A stretch of DNA of 64,000 bases. Origin: Euptelea pleiosperma. Taxonomy: Eukaryota > Streptophyta > Magnoliopsida > Ranunculales > Eupteleaceae. Below, piece by piece: positions 21,861 through 47,632 of the stretch (positions within the stretch are counted from its first letter, which is position 1; every line of letters begins with the position of its first letter). Made by a program: the position numbers and the translations under genes. The stretch lies in contig CM068540.1 of NCBI GenBank assembly GCA_035048495.1, positions 10,400,829 to 10,464,828 of the forward strand. The letters run 5' to 3'. Below the pieces are notes generated by a model, which was given only the letters and a program-made list of their open reading frames with translations, did no database searches and was not told where the DNA came from.

Positions 21861-22254
21861 CAATGAGATGATCCTGACAAACAAAACTGTACTCTTCTTT
21901 CTATCTCTTGTCCATCTTTAAAACCAAAAGTATTTAGGCTATGCTTGGTTCGCTGTAAATGAATGCATTTTGAAAATAAATGTAAATGCATTTAGTTACC
22001 ATGCATTAGTTTACGATTGCTTGGTAGCAATTGAGAAAAACTTCGTAATACTGTACTTAATTAGTCTATGCATTGCAAATAAATGCAACATTTTTTGAAA
22101 AAAAATTAACATTCCTTGTTGGTAATATACATTGACTACTGAAATTTCTACTAAAATCTGTTTGGTTTTCAAATCTTCATAACACAATCTACATAACTAG
22201 AATTTTCCATTTTTCAAGTCAAATTTCCTTGGCACGGAATCAAAATAAATGCCC

Positions 22255-22695: not shown

Positions 22696-22917
22696 CACAT
22701 GGAAAACATCAAGAAGATTTAAGGAAGAAAGAAAAGCAGTTCAAGTAAAATTCCCTTTTTCCCTCGCATCTTAGGCAAACAAGCAACACAGTTACAGCAA
22801 AAAAAGGCATTACATATCAGCTTGCAATGAGATTTCTTAGGTAGCTAGAGGCAGCTCAAGGAAACTTTTACAGATTGAAATGCAAAGTACCAGCATAGAA
22901 AGAACAGCTCCAAAGAT

Positions 22918-23105
22918 CATGGGTTGATTTTAACCATGGGAATTTGAGCATTATTGACCATTATTTGAGGTACAAAGATCGAAAGGTTTGAAATAACTAA
23001 TCAAGCTGATTTTTGGTTTGTAGGTCAACCTCGGGATTGGAAAAACATCCATTCGGTCAGAGTACTCTAAGAATGTGCCACGTGGCTCATTTTATACCCA
23101 GTCGT
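22918..23105. repeat. MITE family 2, half copy
   Basis: It contains TTTGAGCATTATT, GCTGATTTTTGGTTTGTAGG, CATCCATTCGGTCAG and GTGCCACGTGGCTC in the same order as the copies at 12740-13020 and 23712-23940. Confidence 0.7.
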
Positions 23106-23112
23106 CGACCTC

Positions 23113-23570
23113 GATGACAGGGCCCAAAGTTTTACGCTTGGACATAGACTTAAAATCGTATCAATCTGATTCTTTCCACCGTATCTCATCACATACTTCC
23201 AGTAGAAAAAATACGAGTACAACTTTGATTACGGACGTCCATTATCAACATTGATAACTGACCACTGAGTAAAATTTTGATGACAGTTCGAAATTTCGGG
23301 ATTGGATCGGCCAACTTGCCCCAAGACGGTGTGAAAATCCTTCAGAAAACAGAGAACTCGGGCGAGACAGACATGGTTTGGATCGGATCGGTGGGCCGAT
23401 CCACCGATCCAGATCGGGATTGCCCGAGACTTTGAACTATGGTTCGAAGCCCGTGACGGCAAATGAGTTCCCGAGTGCTTTTTCCACGTACCCACCTTTG
23501 CGAGTGTTTTATAAAATTTTTTTTTTAATTTTTTACCGCAAAAGCTAAAAAGCACATGTGCCCTGTCATC
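23113..23570. mobile_element. putative MITE with termini shared with the satellite
   Basis: GATGACAGGGC at 23113 is mirrored by GCCCTGTCATC at 23560-23570. Both ends are accompanied by AAAGTTTTAC, as in the short inverted repeat of the satellite that starts at 28756. No target duplication is visible and the interior has no clear coding capacity. The shared termini point to a common origin with the satellite monomer, which is an inference. Confidence 0.5.
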
Positions 23571-23711
23571 AAAGTTTTACTCTACATCCAAACACACAAG
23601 AGGTGGCCATGAAATGAAGGGTATTTAACTGATGGGCACGTGCGCTACTTGTACGGTAGGCCATTACTGTAACCACGTGCCCTCATTAAGCGATTCGATT
23701 GATGTTATTTT

Positions 23712-23945
23712 CATGGTTTGATTTTAACAGTAGGAATTTGAGCATTATTGAGCGTTATTTTTATACAAAGATCCAAAGGTGTTAAATTACTAATCAGGCT
23801 GATTTTTGGTTTATAGGTCCACCGAGGGACTGGACAAACATCCATACGGTCATCGCCCCACTAAGAATGTGCCATGTGGCTCGTATTTTGTGCTGTGACA
23901 GAAGCTTCTGTCACAACGCTGTGACAGTAGTTTTACTCGATCTTG
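23712..23945. repeat. MITE family 2 copy with a GCTGTGACAG palindrome
   Basis: It has the family-2 order of blocks (TTTGAGCATTATTGAGC, AGGCTGATTTTTGG, CATCCATACGGTCA, GTGCCATGTGGCTCG) and then GCTGTGACAGAAGCTTCTGT, which folds on itself. Confidence 0.7.
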
Positions 23946-24027
23946 TTTGACAAACATCCATACGGTCAGCAACAGCCATTTGATTTGGGAAGGGTCTTGA
24001 TGTAACTAAGGTAAACCTGAGATCTTT

Positions 24028-24327
24028 TCAAATGTGGAAGCGGCATTTTTGGTAGTCACCACTACCATCTGGGCCCACTGACCGCATTGATGTTTAGCCT
24101 ACCCTTAGTAGACATTCATATCAAACCTTGTTTGATGATTTTTAGCCGTTGGTTTTAGTACTAAAAAAAATGGTTGCATTAACGGCTATAAGAACTCCTT
24201 TAAAATTTCTAAAATCTAATGGTTATTGATTACCAATCTGGGTGACTAATGGGTGGGATAAACATCCATGCGGTCAGTGGGCCCAGATGACAGTGGTGAG
24301 TAACAAAAAACGTGCTTCCACATTTGA
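24028..24327. mobile_element. 300-bp MITE with long inverted ends
   Basis: The left arm starts TCAAATGTGGAAG and the right arm ends CTTCCACATTTGA. Inside, the arms also share ATCTGGGCCCACTGACCGCA and its complement. The centre contains short AT-rich DNA. Confidence 0.75.
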
Positions 24328-24393
24328 AGAAGTTTCGGGCATGCTTGTTACATCTTTTTCCATTTGGGAATAATGATGTTTTAGAAAAGCTGA

Positions 24394-27076: not shown

Positions 27077-28136
27077 CATTATTATGGATTCCCTAGGACT
27101 ACGACCGCTCTTAATGTGCTTAAGATCATGAGATTAGTTACTTGCTTAGTAATGGCCGCTCATGCATGCGTTACCTAGAAATAAGTCGTATATTGTAGGG
27201 TTCAATTTGTTGTATTAGCATTATATGCGTATATATGGACATATGTCCTTACCTTCCCACACACCCTACGACATTTAAGTCAATGAAGACATTCTGAGTA
27301 TTATTATGATCCCATTTATGGATACGGCATTTATACTAATACTATAAACGTGCATATTGTTTCTTTAGTTTTCTTATTACTCATTTCACGAAAGTATTGT
27401 CTCCATTTCTCTCACGTGTGTTTATCCTCCAAGTGATCCATCTCCCTTAGCTATTTTATTGTTACACCACTGATGACATACCCAATATTTGCATGTACTA
27501 ACCATTTCTTTTTCGTGTTTGCTTTGTTGTCCCTTACGGACAGGTGTGGATTGAAACGGACAAGTGTATATTAATTGAAGGTCAAGGATGGCTGAAGTGG
27601 ACAAGTGAGGCTGAGGACGTGATCTAGATCAATCCAAAATGAGGACACGTGCATGGCCTAAGAGTTTGCTAGATTCATGAGAAGTTAGTGGGTCAAGGGC
27701 CGTTGACAACCAATGTGGAGTTCAAGCGATAGAGAGAGGTGTCGGGTTAGACGAAGTTGAGTGAGGGGTGTTCAGTGTCACTGCCATATATGTGGACAGA
27801 ATAGGTCCATGGACTGATCGGTATGATCAGCTAGTGTAGGGTGGAGGTGCTGCCGAAAAGATTGGCTAGTAGGCGGTCATCGGCCAAGTGGTTTTTGTGA
27901 TGCACCATGATAGGGTCTGCATCAAACGGTCATACAGGATGTGCAGCCAGCATACTAGACACCCACACGGACCATATATATGATGTTTGGCCAACACTTA
28001 GGTGGACCAATGAACCGAAACCATACATGGTTGGTGGTCCAACCGTTAGATTGGAGTCATTTACATGGTTGATTTGTAACGTTGGTAACTTGAACATCAC
28101 GACCCCGTATCCTATCTAACCTATTATTATATTATA
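27077..28136. other. unassigned DNA with a family-2-like stretch
   Basis: About 27944-28090 contains GATGTTTGGCCAACACTTAG, TGGACCAATGAACCG and ACCGTTAGATTGG, resembling half of MITE family 2. The rest shows no gene. Confidence 0.4.
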
Positions 28137-28500
28137 TCTATATAACAAAATAGGGAAGTTGTCTCCCCCTCTTATACCCCTTTTATCTATTTAGACAAAG
28201 AAGGGCTGAGATCTTATCCCCCAAATAGATGGTGGATCTCAGCCATTCACACCCAATTTTGACAAACGCTTTGTTGGAGAGTACCGTGGGCACTAGCCAC
28301 CCACTATCTATATAACAAGTGACGGTGGTTGTCTAATACCCCTCTTATCTTATATGGCTTCAATAATGAGTGGCTGAGATCCACTATGCTTCATATCGAA
28401 GGCTGAGATTAACTCCCACCGGATTTTGACAAACACTTTGTCGGAAAGTACCGCGGGCACGGGCCACCCACGCATATAACAAGACAACTCAGTTGTATTT
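28137..28500 (+). repeat. tandem duplication of about 165-170 bp
   Basis: Units start TCTATATAACAA at 28137 and 28307, and a third start (CATATAACAAG) lies near 28471. Each unit contains GGCTGAGATC, a TTTTGACAAACNCTTTGT block, GTACCG(T/C)GGGCAC and GCCACCCAC. The third unit is incomplete. Confidence 0.75.
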
Positions 28501-28755
28501 TCTTATCTTATCCATCCATCTAATGTGGACGGTTAGATAAAGAGTCGTTGAGATCAAATCCATCGATCTAATGCGGATGGTTAGATTGTTCTTTGGGATT
28601 GGTGCTAACCGTTGGATCACCAACTTACCTAAGGGGGTTGAGGGGGTGGAAGGAGATTCGGGAGTGCTAGACATGAAGGCAGGCTGACAAAGAAAGCTGG
28701 CACGTGCATTCTGCCATCATGTATGGGAAAGTCGAGCAGGTCATGCTATCCACTA

Positions 28756-31700
28756 GTTGCTGGGAGTAAAACTTCGCAACAGGCCCTGTCATCGAAGAAG
28801 ATGATAGGGCAGCGGATGATGGCACGTGGATTTTGTACCGGCAGACCACCTCGACCTCACCACCCACGTACACAGGTGAGTGTTTTGGCAAAAAAGCACT
28901 CGAGTAATCACCTGGGTACGTGTGTGGCGAGGCCGAGGTGGTCAGTCCGTACAAATCCACGTGCCGAGATCTGTTGCCCTGTCATCTCCTTCGATGACAG
29001 GGCCAGGTCATCAAAGTTTTATCCGGTTGGAGTAAAACATCGATGACAGGCCCTGTCATCGAAGAAGATGACAGGGCAGCGGATGATGGCACGTGGATTT
29101 TGTACCGGTAGACCACCACGGCCTCACCGCCCATGTACACAGGTGAGTGTTTTGGCAAAAAAGCACTCGAGTAATCACTTGGATATGTGTGTGGCGAGGC
29201 CGAGGTGGTCAGTCCGTACAAATTCATGTGCCGAGATCTGCTGCCCGGTCATCAAAGTTTTATCCAGTTGGAGTAAAACTTCGCTGATAGGCCCTGTCAT
29301 CGAAGGAGATGACAGGGCAGCGGATGATGGCACGTGGATTTTGTACCGGTAGACCACCTCGGCCTCACCGCCCACATACACAAGTAAGTATTTTAGCAAA
29401 AAAGCACTCGAGTAATCACCTGGGTACGTGTGTGGCGAGGCTGAGGTGGTCAGTCCATACAAATCCACGTGCCGAGATATGCTGCCTTGTCATCTCCTTC
29501 GATGACAGGGCCCGGTCATCAAAGTTTTATCCGGTTGGAGTAAAACTTCGATTACAGGCCCTATCATCGAAAAAGATGACGGGGCAGCGGATGATGGCAT
29601 GTGGATTTTGTACCGGTAGACCACCTCGGCCTCACTGCCCATGTACACAGGTGAGTGTTTTGGCAAAAAAGCACTCGAGTAATCACATGGGTACGTGTGT
29701 GGCGAGGCCAAGGCAGTCAGTCCGTACAAATACACGTGCTGAGATCTGCTGCCCTATCATCTCCTTTCATGACAGGGCCCGGTCATCAAAGTTTTATCCG
29801 GTTGGAGTAAAACATCGATGACAGGCCCTGTCGTCGAAAAAGAAGACAGGGCTGTGGATGATGGCACGTGGATTTTGTACCGGTAGACAACCTTGCCCTC
29901 AGCACCCACATACACAGGTGAGTGTTTTGGGAAAAAAACACTCGAGTAATCACCGGGGCACGTGGATGGCGAGGGAGAGGTGGTCAGTCCGTATAAATCC
30001 ATGTGCCGAGATCTGCTGCCTTGTCATCTCCTAAGATGACAGGGCCCGGTCATCAAAGTTTTATCCGGTTGGAGTAAAACTTCGATGACAGGTCGGTTGG
30101 AGTAAAACTTCGATGATAGGCCCTTTTCATCGAAGATGACAAGGCAGCGGATGATGGCACGTGGATTTTGTACCGGCAGACCACCTCGGCCTCACCGCCC
30201 ACGTACACAAGTGAGTGTTTTTGCAAAAAAGCACTCGAGTAATCACCAGGATACGTGTGTGGCGAGGCTGAGGTGGTCAGTCCGTACAAATCCACGTGGC
30301 GAGATCTGCTGCCCGGTCATCAAAGTTTTATCCAGTTGGAGTAAAACTTCGATGACAGACCCTGTCATCGAAGGAGATGACAGGGCAGCGGATGATGGCA
30401 CGTGAATTTTGTACCGGTAGACCACCTCGACCTCACCGCCCACGTACACCGGTGAGTGTTTTGGCAAAAAAGCACTCGAGTAATCACTTGGGTATGTGTG
30501 TGGCGAGGCCGAGGTGGTCAGTCAGTACAAATCCACATGCCAAGATCTGCTGCCCTGTCATCTCCTTGGATGACAAGGCCCGGTCATCAAAGTTTTATCC
30601 GGTTGGAGTAAAACTTCGATGACAGGCCCTGTCATCGAAGAATATGACAGTGCAGCGAATGATGGTACTTGGATTTTGTACCGGTAGACCAGCTCAGCCT
30701 CACCACCCACGTACACAGGTGAGTGTTTTGGCAAAAAAGCACTCGAATAATCACCTGGGTACGTGTGTGGCGAGGCCGAGGAGGTCAGGCCGTACAAATC
30801 CACGTCCCGAGATTTGCTGCCCTGTCATCTCCTTCGATGACAAGGTCCGGTCATCAAAGTTTTATCCAGTTGGAGTAAAACTTCTATGACAGACCCTGTC
30901 ATCGAAGATGACAGGGCAGCGGATGATGGCACGTGGATTTTGTACCCGTAAACCACCTCGGCCTCACCGCCCACGTACACAGGTGAGTGTTTTGGCAAAA
31001 AACACTCGAGTAATCACCTGGGTACGTGTATGGCAGGGCCGAGGTGGCCAGTCCGTACAAATCCACTTGCTGAGATCTGATGCCCTGTCCTCTCCTTCGA
31101 TGACAGGGCCCGATCATCAAAGTTTTATCCGGTTGGAGTAAAACTTCGTTGACAGGCCCTGTCATCAAAAAAGATGATTGGGCAGCGGATGATGGCACGT
31201 GGATTTTGTACCGGCAGACAACCTTGGCCTCACCGCCCACGTACACAGGTGAGTGTTTTGGCAAAAACACACTCGAGTAATCACCTGGGTATGTGTGTGG
31301 CGAGGCCGAGGTGGTCATTCCGTACAAATCCACGTGCCGAGATCTGTTGCCCTGTCATCTCCTTCGATGACAGGGCCCGGTCATCAAGTTTTATCCGGTT
31401 GGAGTAAAATTTCGAGGACAGGCCCTATCATCGAAAAAGATGACGGGGCAGCGGATGATGGCATGTGGATTTTATACCGGTAGACCACATCGGCCTCACT
31501 GTCCATGTACACAGGTGAGTGTTTTGGCAAAAAACACTCGAGTAATCACCTGGGTACATGTGTGGCGAGGCCAAGGTGGTCAGCCCGTACAAATCCACTT
31601 GCCGAGATCTGCTGCCCTGTCATCTCCTTTAATGACAGGGCCCGGTCATCAAAGTTTAATCCAGTTGGAGTAAAACTTTGATGATAGGCCCTGTCATCGA

Positions 31701-34700
31701 AAAAGATGACAGGGCAGCAGATCTCGGCAAGTGGATTTTGTAACGGCAGACAACCTTGGCCTCACGGCCCACGTACACAGGTGAGTATTTTCGCAAAAAG
31801 GCACTCGAGTAATCACCTGGGTACGTGTGTGGCGAGGGCGAGGTGGTCAGTCCGTATAAATCCACATGCCGAGATCTGCTGCCCTGTCATCTCCTTCGAT
31901 GACAGGGCCCGGTCATCAAAGTTTTATCCGGTTGGAGTAAAACTTCGATGACAGGCCCTGTCATCGAAAAAGATGATTGGGCAGCGGATGATGGCACGTG
32001 GATTTTGTACCGACAGATAACCTCGGCCTCACCGCCCACGTACACAGGTGAGTATTTTGGCAAAAAAGCACTCGAGTAATCACCTGGGTACGTGAGTGGC
32101 GAAGGCGAGGTGGTGAATCCGTATAAATGCATGTGCCGAGATCTGTTACCCTATCATTTCCTTCGATGACAGGGCCCGGTCATCAAAGTTTTATCCGATT
32201 GGAATAAAACATCGATGACAGGCCCTGTCATCGAAGAAGATGACAGGGGAGAGGATGATGGCAGGTGGATTTTGTACCGGCAGACCACCTCGGCTTCACC
32301 GCCCATGTACATAAGTGAGTATTTTGGCAAAAAAGCACTCGAGTAATCACCTGGGTTTGAGTGTGGCGAGCCCGAGGAGGCCAGTCCGTACAAATCCACG
32401 TGCCGAGATTTGCTACCCTGTCATCTCCTTCGATGACAGGCCCGGTCATCAAAGTTTTATACGATTGGAGTAAAACTTCGATGACAGGGCAGCGAATGAT
32501 GGCACGTGGATTTTCTACCAGCAGACCACCTCGGCCTCACCGCCTACGTACACAGGTGAGTGTTTTGGCAAAAAAACACTCGAGTAATTACCTGGGTACG
32601 TGTGTGGCAAGGCCGAGGTAGTCAGTCCGTACAAATCCATGTGCTGAGATGCTCTGCCCTGTCATCTCCTTTGATGACAGGGCCCGGTCATCAAAGTTTT
32701 ATCCGGTTGGAGTAAAACTTCGATGACAGGGCAGCGGATGATTGCACGTGGATTTTGTACCGGTAGACAACCTTGGCCTCAGCACCCACGTATACAGGTG
32801 GGTGTTTTGGCAAAAAAGCACTCGAGTAATCACCTGGGTATGTGTGTGGCGAGGGAGAGGTGGTCAGTCCATATAAATCCACGTGCCGAGATCTGCTGCC
32901 CTGTCATCTCCGGCGATGACAGGGCCTGGTCATCAAAGTTTTATCCGGTTAGAGTAAAACTTCGATGACAGGCCGGTTGGAGTAAAACTTCGATGACAGG
33001 CCCTGTAATTAAAAAAGATGACAGAGCAACGGATGATGGCACGTAGATTTTGTACCGGTAGACAACCTTGGCCTCAGCACCCACGTACACCAGTGAGTGT
33101 TTTGGCAAAAAAGCACTCGAGTAATCACCTGGGTACGTGTGTGGCGAGGCCGAGGTGGTCAGTCCGTATAAATCCACGTGCTGAGATCTGCTGCCCTGTC
33201 ATCTCCTTTGATGATAGGGCCCGATCATCAAAGTTTAATCCGGTTGGAGTAAAACTTCGATGACAGGGCATTGGATGATGGCAAGTGGATATTGTACCGG
33301 CAGACAACCTTGGCCTCACCGCCCACGTACACAGGTGAGTGTTTTGACAAAAAAGCACTCGAGTAATCACCTGGGTACGTGTGTGGCGAGGGCGAGGTTG
33401 TCAGTCCATATAAATCCTTGTGCTGAGATCTGCTGCCTTGTCATCTCCTTCGATGACAGGGCCCGGTCATCAAAGTTTTATCCGGTTGGAGTAAAACTAC
33501 GATGACAGGGCAGCGGATGATGGCACGTGGATTTTGCGCCTGAAGACCACCCCAACCTCACCGCCCACGTACACAGGTGAGTGTTTTGGCAAAAAAACAC
33601 TCAAGTAATCACCTGGGTATGTGTATGACAAGGCCGAGGTGGTCAGTCCGTACAAATCCACTTGTCGAGATCTGATGCCCTATCATCTCCTTCGATGACA
33701 TGGCCCGGTCATCAAAGTTTTATCCGGTTGGAGTAAAACTTCGTTGCCAGGCCCTGTCATCAAAAAAGATGATTGGGCAGCGGATGATGGCACGTGGATT
33801 TTGTACCGGCAGACAGCCATGGCTTCACCGCCCACGTACACAGGCGAGTGTTTTGGCAAAAACGCACTCGAGTAATCACCTGGGTATGCGTGTGGCGAGG
33901 CCGAGGTGGTCATTCCGTACAAATCCACGTGCCGAGATCTGTTGCCCTGTCATCTCCTTCGATGACAGGGCCAGGTCATCAAATTTTTATCCGGTTGGAG
34001 TAAAACTGCGATGACAGGCCCTGTCATCGAAGAAGATCACAGGTCAGCGGATGATGGCACGTGGATTTTGTACCGGCAGACCACCTCGACCTCACCGCCC
34101 ACGTACACAGGAGAGTGTTTTGGCAAAAAACCACTCGAGTAATCACCGGGTTATGTGTGTGGTGAGGACGAGGTGGTTAGTCTGTACAAATCCACGTGCC
34201 GAGATCTACTGCCCGGTCATCAAAGTTTTATCCAGTTGGAGTAAAAGTTCGATGACAGGCCCTGTCATCGAAGGAGATGACAGGGCAGCGGATGATGGCA
34301 CGTGGATTTTGTACTGGCAGACCACGTCGGCCTCACCACCCACGTACACAGGTGAGTGTTTTCGCAAAAAAGCACTCGAGTAATCTCCTGGGGTACGTGT
34401 GTGGCGAGGCCGAGGTGGTCAGTCCGTATAAATCCACATGCCGAGATCTGTTGCCCTGTCATCTCTTTCGATGACAGGGCCTGGTCATCAAAGTTTTATC
34501 CAGTTGGAGTAAAACATCGATGACTGGACCTGTCATCGAAGAAGATGACAGGGCAGCGGATGATGGCACGTGGATTTTGTACCGGCAGACCACCACGGCC
34601 TCACCGCCCACGTACTCAGGTGAGTGTTTTGGCAAAAAAGCACTCGAGTAATCACCTGGATATGTGTGTGGCGAGGCCGAGGTGGTCAGTCCGTACAAAT

Positions 34701-37700
34701 CCACGCGCTGAGATCTGCTGCCCGGTCTTCGAAGTTTTATCCAGTTCGAGTAAAACTTCGATGACAGGCCCTGTCATCGAAGGAGATGACAGGGCAGCGG
34801 ATGATGGCACGTGGATTTTGTATCGGTAGACCACCTCGGCCTCACCGCCCATGTACACAGATGAGTGTTTTAGCAAAAAAGCACTCGAGTAATCACCTGG
34901 GTACGTGTGTGGCGAGGGCTAGGTGGTCAGTCCGTATAAATCCATGTGCAGAGATCTGCTGCATTGTCATCTCCTTCAATGACAGGGCCCGATTATTGAA
35001 GTTTTATCCAGTTGGAGTTAAACTTCGATGACAGGGCAGCGGATGATGGCACATGGATTTTGCGCCTGCAGACCTCCTCGACCTCACCGCCCACGTACAC
35101 AGCTGAGTGTTTTGGCAAAAAAGCACTCAAGTAATCACCTGGGTACGTGTGTGCCGAGGCCGAGGCGGTCAGTCCGTACAAATCCACGTGCTGAGACAGG
35201 GCCCGGTCATCAAAGTTTTATCCAGTTGGAGTAAAACATCGATGACAGGCCCTGTCGTCGAAAAAGAAGATAGGGCAGTGGATGATGGCACGTGGATTTT
35301 GTACCGGTAGACAACCTTGCCCTCAGCACCCACGTACACAGGTGAGTGTTTTGGGAAAAAAGCACTCGAGTACTCACCGGGGTACGTGTGTGGCGAGGGA
35401 CAGGTGGTCAGTCCGTATTAATCCATGTGCCGAGATCTGCTGCCTTGTCATCTCCTTCGATGACAGGGCCCGGTCATCAAAGTTTTATCCGATTGGAGTA
35501 AAACTTTGATGTCAGGTCGGTTGGAGTAAAACTTTGATAATAGGCCCTTTTCATCGAACATGACAGGGCAGCGGATGATGGCACGTGGATTTTGTACCGA
35601 CCGACCACCTCGGCCTCACCGCGCACGTACACAGGTGAGAGTTTTGGCAAAAAAGGACTCGAGTAATCACCAAGATACGTGTGTGGCGAGGCCGATGTGG
35701 TCAGTCCGTACAAATCCACGTGCCGACATGTGCTGCCCGGTCATCAAAGTTTTATCATGTTGGAGTAAAACTTCGATGACATGCCCTGTAATCGAAAAAG
35801 ATGATAGGGCATTGGATGATGGCAAGTGGATTTTGTACCGGTAGACCACCTCGGCCTCACCGCCCACGTACACCGGTGAGTGTTTTGGCAAAAAAGCACT
35901 CGAGTAATCACCTGGGTACGTGTGTGGCGAGGCCGAGGTGGTCAGTCAGTACAAATCCACATGCCGAGATCTGCTGCCTTGTCATCTCCTTCGATGACAA
36001 GGCCCGGTCATCAAAGTTTAATCCGGTTGGAGTAAAACTTTGATGATAGGCCCTGTCATCGAAAAAGATGACAGGGCAGCGGATGATGGCACATGGATTT
36101 TGTACCGGCAGACAACCTTGGCCTCACCGCCCACGTACATAGGTGAGTGTTTTTGGCAAAAAAGCACTCGAGTAATCACCTGGGTACGTGTATGGCAAGG
36201 CCGAGGTGGTCAGTCCGTACAAATTCACTTGCCGAGATCTGATGCCTTGTCATCTCCTTCGATGACAGGGCCCGATTATCAAAGTTTTATCTGGTTGGAG
36301 TAAAACTTCGTTGACAGGCCCTGTCATCAAAAAAGATGATTGCGCAGCGGATGATGGCACATGGATTTTGTACCGACAGACAACCTTGGCCTCACCGCCC
36401 ACGTACACAGGTGAGTGTTTTGGCAAAAATGCACTCGAGTAATCACCTGGGTATGTGTGTGGCTAGGCCGAAGTGGTCATTCCGTACAAATCCACATGCC
36501 AAAATCTGTTGCCCTGTCATCTCCTTCGATGACAGGGCCAGGTCATCAAAGTTTTATTCGGTTGGAGTAAAACTTCGATGACAGACCGTGTCATCGAAGA
36601 AGATCACAGGTCAGCGGATGATGGCACGTGGATTTTGTATCGGCAGACCACCTCGGCCTCACCGCCCACATACACAGGAGAGTGTTTTGGCAAAAAACCA
36701 CTCGAGTAATAACCTAGATACGTCTGTGGTGAGGTCGAGGTGGTCAGTCTGTACAAATTCACGTGCCGAGATTTGCTGCCCGGTCATCAAAGTTTTATCC
36801 AGTTGGAGTAAAAGTTCGATGACAGGCCCTGTCATCGAAGAGATGACAGGGCAGCGGATGATGGCACGTGGATTTTGTACCGGCAGACCACCTCAGCCTC
36901 ACCACCCACGTACACAGGTGAGTACTTTGACAAAAAGCAGTCGAGTAATCTCCTAGGTACGTGTGTGGGAGGCCGAGGTGGTCAGTCCGTACAAATCCAC
37001 GTGCCGAGATCAGTTGCCCAGTCATCTCCTTCGATGACAGGGCCAGGTCATCAAAGTTTTATCCGGTTGGAGTAAAACATTGATGACAGGCCCTGTCATT
37101 GAAGAAGATGACAGGGCAGCGGATGATGGCACGTGGATTTTGTACCGGTAGACCACGACGGCCTCACCGCCCACGTACACAGGTGAGTGTGTTGGCAAAA
37201 AAGCACTCGAGTAATAACCTAGATATGTGTGTGGCGAGGCTGAGGTGGTCTGTCCGTACAAATCCATGTGGCGAGATCTGCTGCCCGGTCATCAAAGTTT
37301 TATCCAGTTGGAGTTTAAACTTCGATGAGAGGCCCTGTCATTGAATGAGATGACAGGGCAGCGGATGATGGCACGTGGATTTTGTACCGGTAGACCACCT
37401 CGGCCTCACCGCCCACGTACACAGGTGAGTGTTTTAGCAAAAAAACACTCGAGTAATCACCTGGGTACGTGTGTGGCGAGGCTGAGGTGGTCAGTCCATA
37501 CAAATCGACGTGCCGAGATCTACTGCCTTGTCATCTCCTTCGATGACAGGGCCCGGTCATCAAAGTTTTATCTGGTTGGAGTAAACTTCGATGACAGGCC
37601 CTATCATCGAAAAAGATGACGGGGCAGCGGATGATGGCATGTGGATTTTGTACCGGTAGAGCACCTCGGCCTCACTGCCCATGTACACAGGTGAGTATTT

Positions 37701-40700
37701 TGGCAAAAAAGCACTCGAGTAATCACCCGGGTACGTGTGTGGCGAGGCCGAGGTGGTTAGCCCGTACAAATCCACTTGCCGAGATCTGCTGCCCTGTCAT
37801 CTCCTTTGATAACAGGGCCCGGTCATCAAAGTTTAATCCGGTTGGAGTAAAACTTTGATGATAGGCCCTGTCATCTAAAAAGATGACAGGGTAGTCGATG
37901 TTGGCACGTGGATTTTGTACCGGCAGACAACCTTGGCCTCACCGCCCACGTACACAGGTGAGTGTTTTGGCAAAAAAGCACTCGAATAATCACCTGGGTA
38001 CATGTGTGGCGAGGGCGAGGTGGTCGGTCTGTATAAATCCACGTGCCGAGATCTGCTGCCCTGTCATCTCCTTCGATGACAGGGCCCGGTCATCTCCTTC
38101 GATGACAAGGTCCAATCATCAAAGTTTTATCCGGTTGGAGTAAATCTTCGATGACAGGCCCTGTCATCGAAAAAGATTACAGGACAGCGGATGATGGCAC
38201 GTGGATTTTGTACTGGCAGACAACGTCGGCCTCACCGCCCACGTACACAGGTGAGTGTTTGGGCAAAAAAGCACTCGAGTAATCACCTAGGAACGTGAGT
38301 GGCGAGGACGAGGTGGTCAGTCCGTATAAATCCACGTGCCAAGATCTGTTTCCCTGTCATTTCCTTCCATGACAGCGCCCGGTCCTCAAAGTTTTATCCG
38401 GTTGGAGTAAAACATCGATGACAGGCCCTATCATCGAAGAAGATGACAGGGCAGAGGAAGATGGCAGGTGATTTTGTACCGGCAGACCACCTCGTCTTCA
38501 CCGCCCACGTACATAGGTGAGTGTTTTCGCAGAAAAGCACTCGAGTAATCACCTGGGTACGAGTCTGGCGAGGCTGAGGAGGCCAGTCCGTACAAATCCA
38601 CGTGCCGAGATTTGCTGCCCTGTCATCTCCTTCGATGACAGGCCCGATCATCAAAGTTTTATCCGATTGGAGTAAAACTTCGATGACAGGGAAGCGGATG
38701 ATGGCACGTGGATTTTGTACCAGCAGACCACCTCGGCCTCACCGCCCACGTACACAGGTGAGTGTTTTGGCAAAGAAACACATGAGTAATCACCTGGGTA
38801 CGTGTGTGTCAAGGCCGAGGTGGTCAGTCCGTACAAATCCACGTGTTGAGATCCATTGCCCCATCATCTCCTTTGATGACAGTTCTCGGTCATCAAGGTT
38901 TTATCCGGTTGGAGTAAAACTTTGATGACAGGCCCTGTCATCAAAAAAGATGACAGGGCAGCGGATGATGGCATGTGGATTTTGTACCGGTAGACCACCT
39001 CGGCCTCACTGCCCATGTACACAGGTGAGTATTTTGGCAAAAAAGCACTCGAGTAATCACCCAGGTACGTGTGTGGCGAGGTCGAGGTGGTTAGCCCGTA
39101 CAAATCCACTTGCCGAGATCTGCTGCCCTGTCATCTCCTTTGATGACAGGGCCCGGTCATCAAAGTTTAATCCGGTTGGAGTAAAACTTTGATGATAGGC
39201 CCTGTCATCGAAAAAGATGACAGGGCAGTGGATGTTGGCACGTGGATTTTGTACCGGCAGACAACCTTGGCCTCACCGCCCACGTACACAGGTGAGTGTT
39301 TTGGCAAAAAAGCACTCGAATAATCACCTGGGTACATGTGTGGCAAGGGCGAGGTGGTCGGTCCGTATAAATCCACGTGCCGAGATCTGCTGCCCTGTCA
39401 TCTCCTTCGATGACAGGGTCCGATCATCAAAGTTTTATCCGGTTGGAGTAAAACTTTGATGACAGGCCTTGTCATCGAAAAAGATGACAGGACAGCGGAT
39501 GATGGCACGTGGATTTTGTACTGGCAGACAACGTCGGCCATACCGCCCACATACACAGGTGAGTGTTTTGGCAAGAAAGCACTCGAGTAATCACCTGGGA
39601 ACGTGAGTGGTGAGGGCGAGGTGGTCAGTCCGTATAAATCCACATGCCAAGATCTGTTTCCCTGTCATTTCCTTCCATGACAGGGCCCGGTCCTCAAAGT
39701 TTTATCCGGTTGGAGTAAAACATCGATGACAGGCCCTGTCATCGAAGAAGATGACAGGGCAGAGGAAGATGGCAGGTGGATTTTGTACCGGCAGACCACC
39801 TCGTCTTCACCGCCCACGTACATAGGTGAGTGTTTTGGCAAAAAAGCACTCGAGTAATCACCTGGGTACGAGTGTGGCGAGGCCGAGGAGGCCAGTCCTT
39901 ACAAACCCACGTGCCGAGATTTGCTGCCCTGTCATCTCCTTCGATGACAGGCCCGGTCATCAAAGTTTTATCCGATTGGAGTAAAACTTCGATGACAGGG
40001 CAGAGGATGATGGCACGTGGATTTTGTATCAGCAGACCACCTCGGCCTCACCGTCCACATACACAGGTTAGTGTTTTGGCAAAAAAACACATGAGTAATC
40101 ACCTGGGTACGTGTGTGTCAAGGCCGAGGTGGTCAGTCCGTACAAATCCATGTGTTGAGATCCATTGCCCCATCATCTCCTTTGATGACAGTTCTCGGTC
40201 ATCAAGGTTTTATCCGGTTGGAGTAAAACTTTGATGACAGGCCCTGTCATCAAAAAAGATGACAGGGCAGCGGATGATGGCACGTGGATTTTTTACCGGT
40301 AGACAACCTTGGCCTCAGCACCCACGTACATAGGTGAGTATTTTGGCAAAAAAGCACTCGAGTAATCACCTGGGTACGTGTGTGGCGAGGGAGAGGTGGT
40401 CAGTTCGTATAAATCCACGTGCCGAGATCTGCTGCCCTGTCATCTCCTTCGATGACAGGGCCTGGTCATCAAAGTTTTATCCGGTTGGAGTAAAACTTCG
40501 ATGACAGGCCCTGTCATCGAAGATGACAGGGCAGCGGATGATGGCATGTAGATTTTGTACCGGCAAACCACCTCGGCCTCACCGCCCACTTACACAGGTG
40601 AGTGTTTTGGCAAAGAAGCACTCGAGTAATCACCTGGGTATGTGTGTGGCGAGGCCGAGGTGGTCAGTCCGTATAAATCAACGTGCTGAGATTTGCTGCT

Positions 40701-41801
40701 CTGTCATCTCCTTTGATGATAGGGCCCGGTCATCGAAGTTTAATCCGGTTGGAGTAAAACTTCGATGACAGGCCCTGTCATCGAAAAAGATGACAGGGCA
40801 TTGGATGATGGCAAGTGGATTTTGTACCGGTAGACAACCTTGGCCTCACCGCCCACGTACACAGGTGATTGGTTTGGCAAAAAAGCACTCGAGTAATCAC
40901 CTGGGTACGTGTGTGGCGAGGGCGAGGTGGTCAGTCCGTATAAATCCATGTGCTGAGATCTGCTGCTTTGTCATCTCCTTCGATGACAGGGCCCGGTCAT
41001 CAAAGTTTTATCCGTTTGGAGTAAAACTTCGATGACAGGGCAGCGTATGATGGCACGTGGATTTTGCGCCGGCAGACCAGATCGACCTCACCGCCCACGT
41101 ACATAGGTGAGTGTTTTGGCAAAAAAGCACTCGAGTAATCACCTAGGTACGTGTGTGGCGAGGCCGAGGCGGTCAGTCCGTACAAATCCACGTGCTGAGA
41201 TCTGCTGTCCTATCATCTCCTTTGATGATAGGGCCCGGTAATCAAAGTTTTATCCGGTTGGAGTAAAACATCAATGACAGGCCCTGTCGTGGAAAAGGAA
41301 GACAGGGCAGTGGATGATGGCACGTGGATTTTGTACCAGTAGATAACCTTGCCCTCAGCACCCACGTACACAGGTGAGTGTTTTGAGAAAAAAGCACTCG
41401 AGTAATCACCGGGGTACATGTGTGGCAAGGGAGAGGTGGTCAGTCCGTATAAATCCATGTGCCGAGATCTGCTGCCTTGTCATCTCCTTCGATGACAGGG
41501 CCCGGTCATCAAAGTTTTATCTGGTTGGAGTAAAACTTCGATGACAGGTCGGTTGGAGTAAAACTTCGATGACAGGCCCTTTTCATCGAAGATGACAGGG
41601 AAGCGGATGATGGCACGTGGATTTTGTACCGGTAGACCAGCTCGGCATCACCGCCCACGTACACAGGTGAGTGTTTTGGCAAAAAAGCACTCGAGTAATC
41701 ACCAGGATACGTGTGTGGCGAAGACGAGGTGGTCAGTCCGTACAAATCCACGTGCCGAGATCTGCTGCCCGGTCATCAAAGTTTTATCCAGTTGGAGTAC
41801 T
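28756..41801. repeat. 13-kb satellite of nested hairpin monomers (about 266 bp each)
   Basis: Roughly 49 head-to-tail monomers. In the monomer at 28800-29059 the first inverted repeat has arms of about 87 bp (28800-28886 and 28898-28986, about 85 percent complementary by eye). The arms contain GGCACGTGGATTTTGTAC on one side and GTACAAATCCACGTGCC on the other. The loop region carries AAAAAAGCACTCGAG. A second, shorter inverted repeat follows (28992-29022 and 29031-29060: CGATGACAGGG..., AGTTTTA, a GGTTGG loop, TAAAAC, ...CCCTGTCATCG). Full-length monomers are 264-267 bp; shorter forms of about 241 bp lack part of a palindrome. Many monomers stay partly open in frame because 267 is divisible by three, but stops recur and nothing suggests a protein. 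The array starts after unrelated DNA and ends abruptly at GTTGGAGTA against a Copia fragment. Confidence 0.95.
37616..40250. repeat. higher-order duplication of a five-monomer block in the satellite
   Basis: Private variants recur about 1.31-1.34 kb apart. CATTTCCTTCCATGACAG occurs near 38357 and 39666. CATTGCCCCATCATC occurs near 38854 and 40164. A CACTGCCCATGTACAC monomer occurs near 37673 and 39007. The blocks 37616-38925 and 38950-40234 are therefore recent copies of each other. Confidence 0.8.
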
Positions 41802-41802
41802 A

Positions 41803-42160
41803 TTAAGACACCAACAATCTATGTCCTCTTTAGTCTAGTCGTTTTTCAGTTTAAGAATGATTTTATCTCCTACTTCCATTGTGGGTGGTGACCAACCATC
41901 CACTATAGACATCAAGACTCTTTCATCAATGGACTTTAAAAAAGCCCTCATCTTAGCCTTCCAATGGGCATAGTCTTTCCCATCAAACAATGGAGGTCTG
42001 GATGTATTTTCACATTCTCTTTGCATTTTAAAAAATTAATGAAAATGGACTGGTTTCTCAGGAATCTAAATTCAGGTGATTAAACCTTAAAATAGAAATA
42101 CCCGCTCTGATACCAATTGAAATTCCACCAGTCCGTTCTCTTTACTCAATATACCTAGAA
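41803..42160 (-). pseudogene. Ty1/Copia 5' fragment: LTR tip, primer-binding site and start of gag
   Basis: On the minus strand the order is a short LTR remnant ending TTTCA (about 42118-42160), then TGGTATCAGAGCGGG (42101-42115), complementary to initiator methionine tRNA. A gag start follows at 42026 with RPPLFDGKDYAHWKAKMRAF and VDGWSPPT, as in the N-terminal domain of plant Copia gag proteins. The frame stops after 63 codons and the element is cut off at the satellite border. The LTR remnant is cut by the Athila copy A boundary. Only the 5' tip of a Copia element survives. Confidence 0.8.
42101..42115 (-). promoter_or_regulatory. Copia primer-binding site (tRNA-iMet type)
   Basis: TGGTATCAGAGCGGG on the minus strand begins with the standard sequence complementary to the 3' end of plant initiator tRNA-Met. 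It sits just inside the LTR remnant. Confidence 0.85.
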
Positions 42161-45100
42161 AGGGGGGGTCTTGTAGGCAGTTCTGTATGCCCATAAAGCA
42201 TCAGTGAGACGAGTAGACCAGTCTTTACGAGTGGAATTGACTGTCTTCTCCAAGATCTGCTTGATCTGCCGATTAGAAACCTCTACTTGACCACTAGTCT
42301 GCGGATGATAAGCTAGGGCAACCTTGTGGGTAACCCCATACTTTTTCATTAATTTCTCGAATATCCTATTGCAGAAATGGGTGCCCCCATCACTAATGAT
42401 GGCCTTAGGGGCACCGAATCGGGCGAAAATGAACTCCTTTAGGAATTTGACCACCACTTTGTGGTCATTGGTCTTGGTGGGAATAGCTTCTATCCATTTG
42501 GATACATAGTCTACCGCAAGGAGAATGTACTCAAAACCATATGAAACGGGAAAGGGGCCCATGAAGTCGATGCCCCAAATGTCAAAGATTTCATCGACCT
42601 AGATGGGATTGAGGGGCATCATGTTCCTCTGGGAGATGCGGCCTAGATGCTGGCAATTAGGATAGGTTTTGCTGTAGATGTGGGCATCTTTAAATAATGT
42701 GGGCCAGTAGAATCCGCATTGCAGCACTTTTTCTGCAATCTTCTTAGTGCTGAAATGACCACCACAAGGTTGGTCATGACATGAGGACAAGATATTAAGT
42801 TGGTCCGACTCAGGGACACAGAGACGAATGATCTGGTCAGGACAATATTTATACAAATAAGGGTCATCCCAAGAGTAGTACTTAACTCTTGCTAGGAATT
42901 GGCTTTTGTCCTGTTTTAACCAGTGTGAAGGCATTTCTTCGGTGATAAGGTAGTTGACAATGTCAGCATACCAAGGATTAACAGAGATGGCGAACAGTTG
43001 TTCATCTGGAAAGGTTTCAGTGATGGGCTGGGTGTCGAAGGATGACTCTAAAGTCAGTCTAGACAAGTGATCAGCCACTACATTCTCAGTTCCTTTCTTA
43101 TCCTTAATCTCGAGGTCGAATTCCTGCAGTAAGAGAATCCATCGAATTAATCGAGGCTTGGTTTCCTTTTTCGACATAAGATAACGAAGGGCTGCATGAT
43201 CAGTATACACGACCACCTTAGTGGCTAAGAGGTACTGACGGAATTAATCAAGGGCGAAGACTACCGCCAAGAGTTCTTTCTCAGTGGTAGAGTAGTTCAT
43301 TTGGGCAGAGTTAAGAGTTTTGCTCGCGTAGTAGATCACGTGTGACCTTTTGTCAACTCTCTGCCCTAGAACGGTGCCTAACGCGTAGTCAGAAGCATCG
43401 CACATTACCTCGAAGGGTAGAGTCCAGTCAGGGGGACAGATAATGGGCGCAGTAGTGAGCTCAGATTTGAGACGCTCGAATGCCTTGACACAGTCAGCAT
43501 TAAAGTCGAAAGGACTATCTTTAGCCAGAAGATGGGACAGAGGTCGAGCGATTTGAGAGAAGTCCTTGATGAATCGCCTATAGAATCCTCTGTGTCCCAA
43601 AAAGGACCGGATGTCACGCACAGACTTAGGAGTAGGCAAGGTCGAGATGATATCGATTTTAGCTTTGTCGACCTCAATGCCCTGATGGGAAATGACATGT
43701 CCCAGAACAATGCCCTTCTTCACCATGAAGTGGCATTTCTCCCAATTGAGGACAAGTCGCTTGTCCTGACAGCGGTGAAGTACAAGCCCTAGATGGTTCA
43801 GACAGTCATCAAAGGATGACCCAAAGACTGAGAAGTCGTCCATAAAGACTTCGAGAAATTTTTCCACCATGTCAGAGAATATGCTCATCATACACCTTTG
43901 AAAGGTTGCGGGTGCATTGCAGAGGCCAAAGGGCATGCGCTTGTAGGCAAAAGTGCCAAAGGGACAAGTGAAGGTTGTCTTCTCGTGATCCTCAGGGGCA
44001 ATTGGTATTTGATTATACCCTGAGTAACCATCGAGGAAGCAGTAATAGGAGTGACCTGCTAGTCTCTCCAACATTTGGTCTATGAAGGGTAAAGGAAAAT
44101 GGTCCTTCCTAGTGTTGGTGTTGAGTCGTCGGTAATCGATGCAGACTCTCCACCCTTTCTTCAGGCGCTGGGTTACCATTTCCTTGTTCTCATTTTCCAC
44201 AACTGTGAATCCTGCCTTTTTAGGGATGACATGAATAGGACTCACCCATTTGCTATCGGAGATGGGGTAAATGATACCCGCATCTAACAGTTTAAGGACC
44301 TCGTCCCGGACTACATCCTTCAAGACGGGGTTCAACCTCCTCTGGTGTTCTCGAGAGGTTTTGGATTCATCCTCAAGATAGATGTGATGTTGGCACACCG
44401 AGGGGTCAATGCCACGAATATCATCTATAGTCCAACCTATCGCAGATTTGTGCTTGTTGAGCAGCTCGAGAAGTTTTTTACGTTCACTCTCAAACAAAGC
44501 GGAAGCAATAATGACAGGGTAGGTTTCCTTAGGACCAAGATAGGCATAGGAAAGATCTGTTGGAAGTGGCTTGAGCTCCAATATTGGAGCAGATGGAGTA
44601 GAAATAGGTGTCACAGAAGACACGGATTGAAGAGGTTTGACTTCAGTAGGTAAAGGAAGGATGGGTTCTCTGGCCATGGTTATCAGAGGCTCGAACTCGA
44701 TGAGTGGAGCGGGGATCTCTATCAGTGGAGCAGTCTCCAAAAGATCATTGAGATCGGAAATAGCTGATTCTGTTGCAAAGTCAGCTCCAAAGTGTTCTAG
44801 ACACTGCTTAAGAATATCTTTGGTGGAGTCCGGGATTAGACTCTCAACGGCACACATTTCATCGGCCACATCGCGATCGGCATCCTGTTGCATTAGACGA
44901 AAGATATTGACCTCAGCTTTGAGGTTTCCGAAAGCAATGGACATGTTTCCGTCCCGGCACTCGATGTGTGCATTCGCAGTGGCAAGGAATGGATGGCCTA
45001 AGATGACCGGAATGCGGTTATCCTGACACGGCTCGGTGTCTAGAATGATAAAGTCCACAGGATAATAAAAGTCAACAACTTTTACTAGGACATCTTTAAT

Positions 45101-45780
45101 GATTCCTCTTGGAATCTTGATGGACTGATCAGCCAATTTCAGGGTGACATTGGTAGGCTTCATATCTTTCAGTCCTAACTGCTGATATACCGAGAATGGT
45201 ATGAGGTTAACGCTAGCCCCTAAATCTAGCAAGGCAGTGCAGCTAAAGTTGTCGCCAATTTCACATTGGACAGTTGGGCTACCTGGATCCTTGTGTTTGA
45301 TCACACTGTTGCGTTGAATGAACGCGGTAGCTTTTTCGGCCAAGAAGGCAGCTTTGGGTACATGCGTACGCCGCTTAACTGTGCACAAGTCCTTGAGGAA
45401 TTTGGCATAAGAGGGGATTTGCTTGATAGCAGAAAGGAATGGGATATTGATCTGGACGTCTTTAAAGACGTCTAAGATCTCTGAGAATTGCTGATCCCGC
45501 TTATCTTGGACAAGTCTGTCCGGGAGGGAGGCTTTAGTCGACAAATGGATTTGTCTTTAGCCTTAGATTTCTGCACAAAGATATCTGATGTTGGCACAGA
45601 GGGAGAGGAAGCAGAGGTAGGATTGGTACTAGTTTCCTCTGTACGAGTGATGGGTGCTGGAGATGGCACTGGCGGTGGTTGGACTCCTATGTCCACAGTT
45701 TTTCCAGATCGTAGGGTGGTTACAGCTTGCACCTCCCCTTGACAGTTCTCATTCTGGCTTTGAGATTGGGATCCAATCTC
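42157..45780 (-). pseudogene. Athila copy A pol: protease, RT, RNase H, integrase (decayed)
   Basis: Reading the minus strand, an aspartic protease with LLDLGASVNLIPFSVYQQ (about 45160-45230) is followed by reverse transcriptase with catalytic FMDDFSVFG (about 43830), RNase H with VMCDASDYALGTVLG (about 43400), then the integrase zinc finger and DDE core. The core retains [15 protein letters not shown] and [10 protein letters not shown] around its three acidic residues. In the zinc finger one cysteine appears to be replaced (TYPNCQ where a C-x2-C pair is expected). Damage: a one-base deletion near 45525 compared with copy B, a stop after VVFALD (43244-43246), and a stop before VDEIFDIWG (42599-42601). 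The frame is cut at AYKTPPF. It cannot make an active polyprotein. Confidence 0.92.
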
Positions 45781-45884: not shown

Positions 45885-47632
45885 ATAGGGATTCTTGTCG
45901 GATGTCGATCCGCACTCGGGGTTAGCTTGCACAATTCAAGGACATAAAATGACAGATTTTAGCGAGAAATTTGCGGAAACAATTTATGGAGGGGTGAGAA
46001 TGGTGATGAAAGTGAGATTAAAATATGCTTTGTATGTGGAAATTGATCACAAATAACTAATAACATCAATGACAATGATTCAAAACACAGAAATATAATA
46101 ATAAAATTCTAATCAAAATTCTGAGTTACAAAACGTTGCTCAATTGAAAATTGTTCTAAACATGATGACATACTTTCTAATAAAAGTTAATTAAGAGAAA
46201 CTAGAGAGAGAAAAATGCTAGAGATAGAGAGAGTTATTAAGAGAGAGAAAGTTAGAGGAAGAGAGAGAAAGAAAGATTTTGGAGAGAAAGAAGATTAATG
46301 AGGGAAGATAGAAGATCACCTTTCAAGAACTTACCAATGGCAAAGGATCACCATGTTGGATCGGCAAATGGGCTGGTCGAGCACTGCGAGGAGATCCAGC
46401 CAAGTGATTGGTTGTAGGTAGTGCACGTGATGCACTATGAGGAGGCTACAGTAGCACGTGGAAGGACAAGGCTTGTGGTTGGCTTCAAGGTTTGCAGCGA
46501 TGTGCAAGACAGGTGGCAGCAAGCGCAACCCTTAGACCAACGAATCAGGCTATGAAGATGGACGGGGGGTGCATGGTGGAGGCGATGGTGGTGGACTGTT
46601 GCAAGTACGGGAGAAGTAGCAACTTTCCGGTGGAGTTGTAGGTGGTGGATTGGTGGGAGTAGATGGAGAAGGTCGGCAGCTTCTACTGGTGGAGTGCAGT
46701 CAGTGAAGACAACAATGGGTGACTGCAACATCGCCTTCACTTAGAGCCTCCATCGGACTGGTACACCAAGGCCCTCACGTCCAGCGATATCGGTCACCCA
46801 TTGCTGTCTTCACTGACTGCACTCCACCAGTAGAAGCTGCCGACCTTCTCCATCTACTCCCACCAATCCACCACCTGCAACTCCACCGGAAAGTTGCTAC
46901 TTCTCCCGTACTTGCAACAGTCCACCACCATCGTCTCCACCATGCACCCCCCCATCCATCTTCATAGCATGATTCGTTGGTCTAAGGGTTGCGCTTGCTG
47001 CCACCTGTCTTGCACATCGCTGCAAACCTTGAAGCCAACCACCAACCTTGTCCTTCCACGTGCTACTGTAGCCTCCTCATAGTGCATCACGTGCACTACC
47101 TACAACCAATCACTTGGCTGGATCTCCTCGCAGTGCTCGACCAGCCCATTTGCCGATCCAACATGGTGATCCTTTGCCATTGGTAAGTTCTTGAAAGGTG
47201 ATCTTCTATCTTCCCTCATTAATCTTCTTTCTCTCCAAAATCTTTCTTTCTCTCTCTTTCCCTAACTTTCTCTCTCTTAATAACTCTCTCTATCTCTAGC
47301 ATTTTTCTCTCTCTAGTTTCTCTTAATTAACTTTTATTAGAAAGTATGTCATCATGTTTAGAACAATTTTCAATTGAGCAACGTTTTGTAACTCAGAATT
47401 TTGATTAGAATTTTATTATTATATTTCTGTGTTTTGAATCATTGTCATTGATGTTATTAGTTATTTGTGATCAATTTCCACATACAAAGCATATTTTAAT
47501 CTCACTTTCAACACCATTCTCACCCCTCCATAAATTGTTTCCGCAAATTTCTCACTAAAATCTGTCATTTTATGTCCTTGAATTGTGCAAGCTAACCCCG
47601 AGTGCGGATCGACATCCGACGGTATAGGGATG
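45885..47632. repeat. inverted duplication of about 840 bp inside the solo LTR
   Basis: The left arm is about 45885-46722 and the right arm about 46792-47632, with a 70-bp spacer. The arms match almost base for base by eye, for example CGGATGTCGATCCGCACTCG at the outer left and its complement at the outer right, and GCAGTCAGTGAAGACAACAA at the inner left and nearly its complement at the inner right. Comparison with copy C shows the left arm has the normal LTR orientation and the right arm is the inverted extra copy. Confidence 0.9.

Follow-up and report, generated by a model that had tools for sequence, protein, structure and literature searches.

Tandem full-size miniature inverted-repeat transposable elements (MITEs), satellites derived from MITEs, and satellite monomers with long dyads are all already known. 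Full-size MITEs in tandem were reported in corals as CMITEs, in that paper's words the first such case; in the parts consulted, the elements and the intervening sequence are described as highly similar, and the authors infer replication slippage rather than independent transposition (PMC2872659). The consulted parts of two further papers list as MITE-derived satellites Xstir and miDNA4 of Xenopus, D1100 of rye, and cases in Messor ants and bivalves (PMC12628747, PMC9659126). Satellites with long dyads, termed not so common in the consulted part of a study of Tribolium madens TmSat2, include a 1061-bp unit with ~470-bp arms in T. brevicornis and an 80-bp-arm case in Trichogramma (PMC13081366). 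Here we describe a tandem array in 64,000 nucleotides of Euptelea pleiosperma (assembly GCA_035048495.1, contig CM068540.1, positions 10,400,829 to 10,464,828 of the forward strand; hereafter the window, to which all positions refer). Almost the whole length of each of its monomers is one inverted repeat, and we regard the array, with moderate confidence, as a foldback-type MITE that was tandemly amplified and is now a passive, decaying, silenced satellite.

Monomers were cut at the recurrent GGAGTAAAAC, and Tandem Repeats Finder placed an array with a period of ~267 bp at about 28.76-41.8 kb. This agreed with an earlier note on this DNA, which had described a ~13-kb tandem array at 28756-41801 with a period near 266 bp; its count of about 49 monomers became 50 in our analysis.
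28763-41799, + strand: tandem array of 50 monomers (28763-41793) followed by a 6-bp stub, GGAGTA (41794-41799).
The array starts and ends on one phase of the unit, with GGAGTA at 28763 and again at 41794, and unrelated sequence begins after the stub. The last monomer (41527-41793) has the modal length of 267 bp; lengths fell at 263-268 bp in 35 monomers (mostly 267), at 241-242 bp in 12, at 293 and 295 bp in two and at 214 bp in one. All 50 scored higher in the forward than in the reverse orientation, as expected of a satellite made of head-to-tail copies of one unit. The mean pairwise identity was 88.7% (81.6-97.4%) and the mean identity to the consensus 93.5%, and the GC content was ~50% in the array, compared with 33-40% in 2-kb windows to its left and 42-48% to its right. 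Because all 50 monomer rows were distinct, no pair agreed at more than 97.4% of its shared columns, no exact direct repeat exceeded 131 bp and the window was without any N, an assembly artefact, a possibility raised in the earlier note, is an unlikely source of the array. No tRNA genes were detected in the 64-kb window, and Rfam at its gathering score gave no match inside the array and one elsewhere in the window. Viral contigs searched with the monomer-end pattern gave no matches, and a bacterial-type promoter and terminator scan of two monomers was uninformative, the host being a plant. The G-box motif CACGTG occurred 57 times over the 50 monomers, 11 of which were without one.

In the phase GGAGTAAAAC...TTTTATCC, the consensus formed one hairpin with 112 pairs covering positions 1-263 of 267, with only the last four bases, a GGTT-type spacer, lying outside the stem. 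Folded as RNA, it reached -196.6 kcal/mol, compared with -86.4 kcal/mol (standard deviation 5.6) for 200 dinucleotide shuffles (z -19.7), and the same kind of shuffle gave a z of -19.0 for the fold as DNA. The stable long stem that the earlier note had expected of a folded consensus was thus found, and its observation that almost every base lies within inverted repeats was borne out. The 50 actual monomers were less stable than the consensus, with a mean of -143.9 kcal/mol and a range of -96.4 to -185.4 kcal/mol, and every one of them reached a z of -5.5 or below against its own 20 mononucleotide shuffles (weakest -5.5). The lower end of this energy range was set by one monomer:
34238-34505, + strand: monomer 22, with the strongest RNA fold among the 50 (-185.4 kcal/mol).
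The earlier note had seen a double hairpin in each monomer, with arms of about 87 and about 30 bp. The longer arms correspond to consensus positions 38-118 paired with 147-226, and the shorter ones to positions 229-263 paired with 1-35 of the next monomer, which make up the basal stem of that one hairpin, viewed from one monomer into the next. Since a tandem palindrome has two dyad axes per period, the double- and single-hairpin descriptions are one fact seen in different phases. A model with two hairpins per monomer was rejected, as one fold spans 263 of the 267 nt and the second axis is the junction. The array contains about 99 dyad axes (50 loops and 49 junctions), and it aligned with its own reverse complement in single alignments as long as the array itself, the longest covering 13,670 columns at 66.7% identity. 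The two arms of the consensus were identical at 105 of 131 aligned columns, with 26 columns differing, loop columns included. The monomer ends are terminal inverted repeats (TIRs), with GGAGTAAAACTTCGATGACAGG... at one end and, in the inward reading, GGATAAAACTTTGATGACCGGG... at the other, and the consensus hairpin at 1-263 of 267 is thereby a short element with TIRs, as in a MITE of the foldback type.

The spacer was of one type at all 49 internal junctions (GGTT at 31, AGTT at 11, GATT at 5, TGTT at 1 and GTTT at 1) and adjoined TTATCC at 37 junctions or a near variant at 12. Because independent insertions would usually give differing target duplications each time, this uniformity suggests one founding joint that was subsequently copied. 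We also compared each monomer with all others. For none of the 50 was the closest relative next door, an observation weak alone, since the same was true in 463 of 2000 shuffles. Collinear best partners, with the same offset, were found for 17 of 49 neighbouring pairs, compared with 0.96 on average and at most 6 in 2000 shuffled orders, which shows that the array grew by multi-monomer blocks, giving an irregular higher-order pattern; recurrent offsets include 5, 10, 21, 23, 24, 29 and 31 monomers. The clearest example was the following:
37578-40486, + strand: monomers 35-45, block copy of 35-into-40 against 40-into-45, 96.9% identical over 1326 aligned positions, offset 5.
A segment scan detected seven segments, compared with a mean of 6.0 in 20 shuffled monomer orders, and the offset-5 block of 1326 positions was the sole segment beyond the shuffles (mean longest 517, maximum 1064 in the 20 orders); the collinearity test is the better evidence of block copying. 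Clustering of recombination breakpoints at the tip or base of the hairpin was rejected, as the 14 segment ends were spread over the unit (positions 9 to 247).

The fold itself was examined for signs of upkeep in the alignment of the 50 monomers. Standard pairs made up 92.6% of 5202 pair cells, compared with 92.7% when the 3' letters were shuffled among monomers. As the structure was taken from the consensus, it is expected that most cells pair and that they do so more often than in slid versions, and neither is evidence of upkeep. Pairs changed on both sides numbered 8, compared with 13.2 in shuffles, and the covariation score was 0.073, compared with 0.075 in the shuffled alignments. A second count gave 334 departures from the consensus in the left arm and 348 in the right; double departures numbered 28, where 31.6 were expected, and 12 of them were Watson-Crick pairs. 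The alignment therefore contained no compensatory arm-arm change beyond chance, such as a dyad-selected satellite would carry. A left module of ~25 bp was absent from monomers 15, 16, 18, 19, 25, 39, 44 and 48, and a right module of 26 bp from monomers 2, 6, 21, 23, 25, 27, 31, 33 and 50; monomer 25 alone lacked both, leaving 15 of the 16 affected monomers lopsided. The first 28 bp were duplicated in monomers 6, 17, 27 and 50, and the right module was doubled in monomer 36. Three monomers combine two of these changes, exemplified by the first of them:
30071-30337, + strand: monomer 6, 28-bp duplication of the 5' end plus loss of the right 26-bp module, common to monomers 27 and 50.
The lost modules sit, in the alignment, between short direct copies of GATGACAGG or GTCATC, an arrangement to be expected if slippage removed them. 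The hairpin is apparently not maintained, and the arms drift independently. Given the lack of covariation and the one-sided module losses, selection on the fold was rejected for this array, and the earlier note's suggestion of a maintained cruciform or chromatin landmark was not supported; the long dyads look inherited rather than selected.

Changes relative to the consensus were then sorted by sequence context. Transitions were found in 11.3% of CG cells (198/1757), 8.5% of CHG cells (147/1727), 2.9% of CHH cells (105/3575) and 1.3% of A/T cells (78/5831), the CG and CHG rates being 6-8 times that at A/T sites, while transversions ranged over 1.8-3.5% across the four classes. Parsimony counts on a FastTree tree, in which shared ancestry and exchange between monomers are only partly removed, gave 4.14 changes per site at CG, 3.81 at CHG, 1.85 at CHH and 0.90 at A/T. 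We read this CG/CHG-biased decay as the probable scar of long cytosine methylation. As a control, three inverted-duplicate pairs in the transposon-rich right part of the window showed CG/CHG/CHH rates of 10.7/5.2/3.0%, 8.6/9.8/6.5% and 5.0/4.7/1.5%, on the basis of only 2-12 CG changes each and with little contrast in the second pair. Since the control pairs share the scar, albeit with small counts, it is no special property of the array and carries no information particular to the hairpin. The proposal in the earlier note that the array attracts small-RNA silencing thus finds indirect agreement in the CG/CHG transition scar, which, being present in other duplicates of the window as well, is not specific to the hairpin.

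Relatives of the monomer were sought with the array masked, using a profile (nhmmer) and blastn over the rest of the window. The best nhmmer matches outside the array clustered at 23.06-23.58 kb; the other rows, three of them elsewhere in the window, had E values of 2.3-9.9, at chance level. Two features stand in this cluster:
23078-23135, - strand: diverged fragment aligning with monomer positions 4-68 at 69% identity, nhmmer E 9.3e-5 and 8.6e-4 (two orientations).
23267-23582, no strand assigned: 316-bp MITE-like element with inverted ends GAGTAAAATTTTGATGACAG / CTGTCATCAAAGTTTTACTC, 95% complementary.
The right end of the 316-bp element agreed with the monomer terminus at 20 of 21 bases (blastn E 0.017) and the left end at 18 of 20 (E 0.33), nhmmer gave E 0.11-0.19 at the right end (23558-23582), and a third end, GAGTAAAACT, was found at 23938. 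We read the monomer and the 23-kb elements as one putative TIR-element family, of which the monomer would be a nearly loopless foldback member. No full-length solo copy of the monomer was present among the masked-window matches; at 23.0-23.9 kb there were the 316-bp element with its matching termini and diverged fragments. A fuzzy scan for the terminus was uninformative, as its pattern was copied from one hit, its best-match mode gave one site and the shuffled means were 3.1 and 0.9. Pfam, applied to 10 of the 74 open reading frames (ORFs) of the window, gave retrotransposon domains in three and no match in seven; the rve integrase ORF, one of the three, also drew DDE_Tnp_IS240 below the cut-off.

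Several other MITE-like inverted repeats lie to the left of the array. The 316-bp element is flanked by direct repeats at 22917-23093 and 23711-23887, ~793 bp apart, with three stretches 87-89% identical; each runs on to a different ...AGTTTTAC end, which suggests nested or composite elements. A further MITE-like element at 24016-24339 has 89-nt inverted arms, 82% complementary and 146 nt apart. Near the TIR elements at 23.0-23.9 kb, a HisA-like exon was found at 22214-22567, within 22214-22760 (- strand), with several hits bearing PF00977 or HisA-type names; there were 12 hits, among which the best with a name was a Cinnamomum sequence, 65% identical across 49% of the query. The stretch upstream of this exon looks HisA-like by eye and has in-frame stops, so that this may be a pseudogene or gene fragment.

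The immediate flanks of the array differ in content:
41800-42115, - strand: right flank, copia-type gag-like reading frame cut by the array edge.
28561-28762, no strand assigned: left flank, non-satellite sequence.
The gag-like frame matched DUF4219 (E 1e-4) and Retrotran_gag_3 (E 0.03), both below the Pfam cut-offs, and no second copy of the stretch was found by blastn (best E 0.79). No gag-like frame was seen by eye in the left flank in six frames of 27600-28780, with no further continuation search made, and no exact match longer than 4 bp was present between the 25 bases left of the array and the 30 bases at its right edge. A simple insertion of the array, with target duplication, into a copia-like gag was therefore not supported; without a gag continuation on the left, either the array did not arrive by simple insertion into that element or later rearrangement altered the site. 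The left flank also carries a short local repeat at 28513-28538 (blastn E 8e-4). Further to the right are Ty3-type ORFs (RVT_1, E 4.4e-29; Retrotrans_gag, E 3.9e-20), and for the gag/protease ORF the closest relatives of nearly full length share 36-38% identity. A gag/protease ORF of a Ty3-type element, at 55178-57997 (+ strand), holds an antisense match to Rfam snoR71 (RF00097) at 55682-55791 (- strand; 49.8 bits, gathering score 40), which may have arisen by chance or be borne by the transposon; alternatively, the retrotransposon contains a snoRNA. The same retrotransposon-rich part contains a near-perfect inverted duplication at 45897-47620, with arms at 45897-46723 and 46793-47620 around a 69-nt centre; the arms, made up of two adjoining pairs, one of 673 nt (99% complementary) and one of 160 nt (98%), apparently form a recent long palindrome. 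A Ty3-type coding stretch is present in two inverted copies, 43940-45525 and 57099-58684, 97% complementary over 1586 nt.

How might such an array have arisen? We propose that it began as a foldback-type MITE of ~263 bp, whose terminal inverted repeats would have met at a short loop. This MITE may have been excised or replicated as an end-to-end joined molecule, joined once with a 4-bp GGTT-type spacer, and a first amplification could have proceeded either from an excised circle, copied in rolling-circle fashion, or through slippage during replication. Later growth to 50 copies would have occurred by unequal exchange or template switching, copying blocks of several monomers. Silencing would then have left the array as passive, methylated heterochromatin whose hairpin is a decaying legacy of the transposon. 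A tandem palindrome reads much the same on both strands, and RNA copied from either would therefore fold back into long double-stranded RNA (dsRNA). For plant MITE hairpins, the consulted part of one paper states that DCL3 makes 24-nt small interfering RNAs (siRNAs) independently of RDR2 (PMC10004981). By analogy, a tandem of such hairpins would be a strong siRNA source whichever strand is transcribed, and the hairpin dsRNA would be expected to feed DCL3/24-nt siRNA methylation, keeping the array silent. Nothing seen in the sequence asks for a function beyond that of a silenced hairpin source.

The suggestion in the earlier note that a MITE turned into this satellite is thus the best reading, given a unit running from TIR to TIR and the recurrence of its ~20-bp terminus at 23267-23582. 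It is not proven, and a number of points weigh against it. Taken singly, neither E value of the terminal match is more than modest (0.017 by blastn, 0.11 by nhmmer); inside the 316-bp element, nothing matches the monomer except a chance-level stretch near 23.46-23.50 kb; and outside the array the family was seen in the window at 23.0-23.9 kb only. Target-site duplications were found neither around the array, where there were three 4-bp flank matches, nor, by eye, around 23267-23582, and the search yielded no transposase (Pfam, the 10 of 74 ORFs) and no superfamily assignment for the monomer. With arms identical at 105 of 131 columns, the element either was already old at the time of its amplification or had at no stage been a perfect foldback. 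Uniform spacers would also result if an element with a fixed target sequence inserted repeatedly, the segment scan alone separates block copying from shuffled order for one block only, and methylation-type decay fits any silenced repeat. The differing arm columns would also accord with a palindrome born inside the satellite, in which an ordinary repeat of ~130 bp gained an inverted second copy and the two together served as the new monomer, with no transposon involved and the nearby ends being satellite debris. Whole-monomer dyads made of inverted subunits are described for TmSat2 in the consulted part of the Tribolium paper (PMC13081366). We nevertheless find this origin doubtful here, as no monomer of about half length occurs among the 50 (shortest 214 bp) and as it gives no reason to expect the monomer terminus at both ends, in inverted orientation, of another element, the one of 316 bp.

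A larger transposon or other mobile unit that carried the array inside it as a tandem block, and moved whole as in Tetris or Helitrons, would account for the array beginning and ending on the same phase and for the cut gag-like frame at its right edge, and Tetris, in the consulted part of its description, is a satellite born inside a transposon (PMC4079207). The edges, however, carry no target duplication beyond 4-bp matches, and the left flank shows no gag-like frame by eye, with larger ends further out not searched systematically, so that we hold this origin to be distinctly unlikely. The stable fold of every one of the 50 monomers might instead reflect hairpins selected for a chromatin role such as centromere marking, either as extruded cruciforms or as hairpin RNAs, and dyad-rich DNA has been proposed, in the consulted part of one paper, to help specify centromeres (PMC9070824). 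Compensatory change below the shuffled level, the loss of a module from one arm only in nearly all module-lacking monomers and a decay of the methylation type make such a role highly improbable. It is, finally, general knowledge that long tandem palindromes are hard to assemble, and an assembler might have repeated a few monomers; with the 50 monomers distinct, the best pair at 97.4% and exact repeats ending at 131 bp, this is scarcely credible.

If the MITE origin is true, an autonomous partner would carry GAGTAAAACTT ends, and the length of the target duplication beside solo copies would point to the superfamily, 9-10 bp to MULE, 8 bp to hAT and 2-3 bp to Tc1 or PIF. The array seems to capture plainly the conversion of a transposon into a satellite, as the TIR-to-TIR unit is still recognisable, the founding joint can be read at all 49 internal junctions and the history of block copying is partly traceable. 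It would be a long shot, on present evidence, to propose a class of plant satellites with a complete foldback transposon as monomer, in which either strand gives long dsRNA without an RNA-dependent polymerase and which act as self-silencing heterochromatin seeds that also silence dispersed MITE relatives in trans. Related arrays, if they exist, would let self-silencing by hairpin RNA, and the question of selected versus inherited dyads, be tested directly.

In the open-licence literature, with subscription papers outside the scope of the search, we found no plant satellite with a whole-hairpin MITE as its monomer, and the combination of a plant host, a whole TIR-to-TIR hairpin monomer and 50 copies did not appear. 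The words tandem, satellite and foldback are absent from the main text, as consulted, of a 2025 review of plant MITEs (PMC12595863). The comparisons that follow rest on the consulted parts of the papers cited. Like the coral CMITE arrays, the present array consists of full-size MITE-type units in tandem; CMITEs are piggyBac-like, with TTAA duplications and with the interior conserved rather than the TIRs (PMC2872659), whereas the array here has a whole-unit hairpin, 50 copies, block duplications and no demonstrated target duplication. It would share with the other MITE-derived satellites a non-autonomous TIR element as its source, and it has in common with the rye case a plant host (PMC12628747, PMC9659126). 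Xstir comes from a part of a MITE, the internal sequence according to one review and the TIR according to a table in the other, and miDNA4 is a satellite inside a MITE (PMC12628747, PMC9659126), whereas the monomer here runs from TIR to TIR. In Tetris/TIR-220 of Drosophila virilis, a foldback transposon likewise feeds a satellite, but there a ~220-bp repeat within the TIR forms the tandem unit and not, as probably here, the whole foldback element (PMC4079207). The hAT-MITEs of cod also provide tandem inverted repeats derived from a MITE, in a fish, at inversion breakpoints and with ~600-bp TIRs built of ~167-bp repeats (PMC12368964). In TmSat2, as in the array described here, one inverted repeat fills most of the monomer, with ~300-bp arms in 704 bp; that satellite belongs to a beetle, is putatively (peri)centromeric and multi-megabase in extent and is built of inverted satellite subunits (PMC13081366), whereas the present array is found in a plant, extends over ~13 kb and has transposon-like ends.

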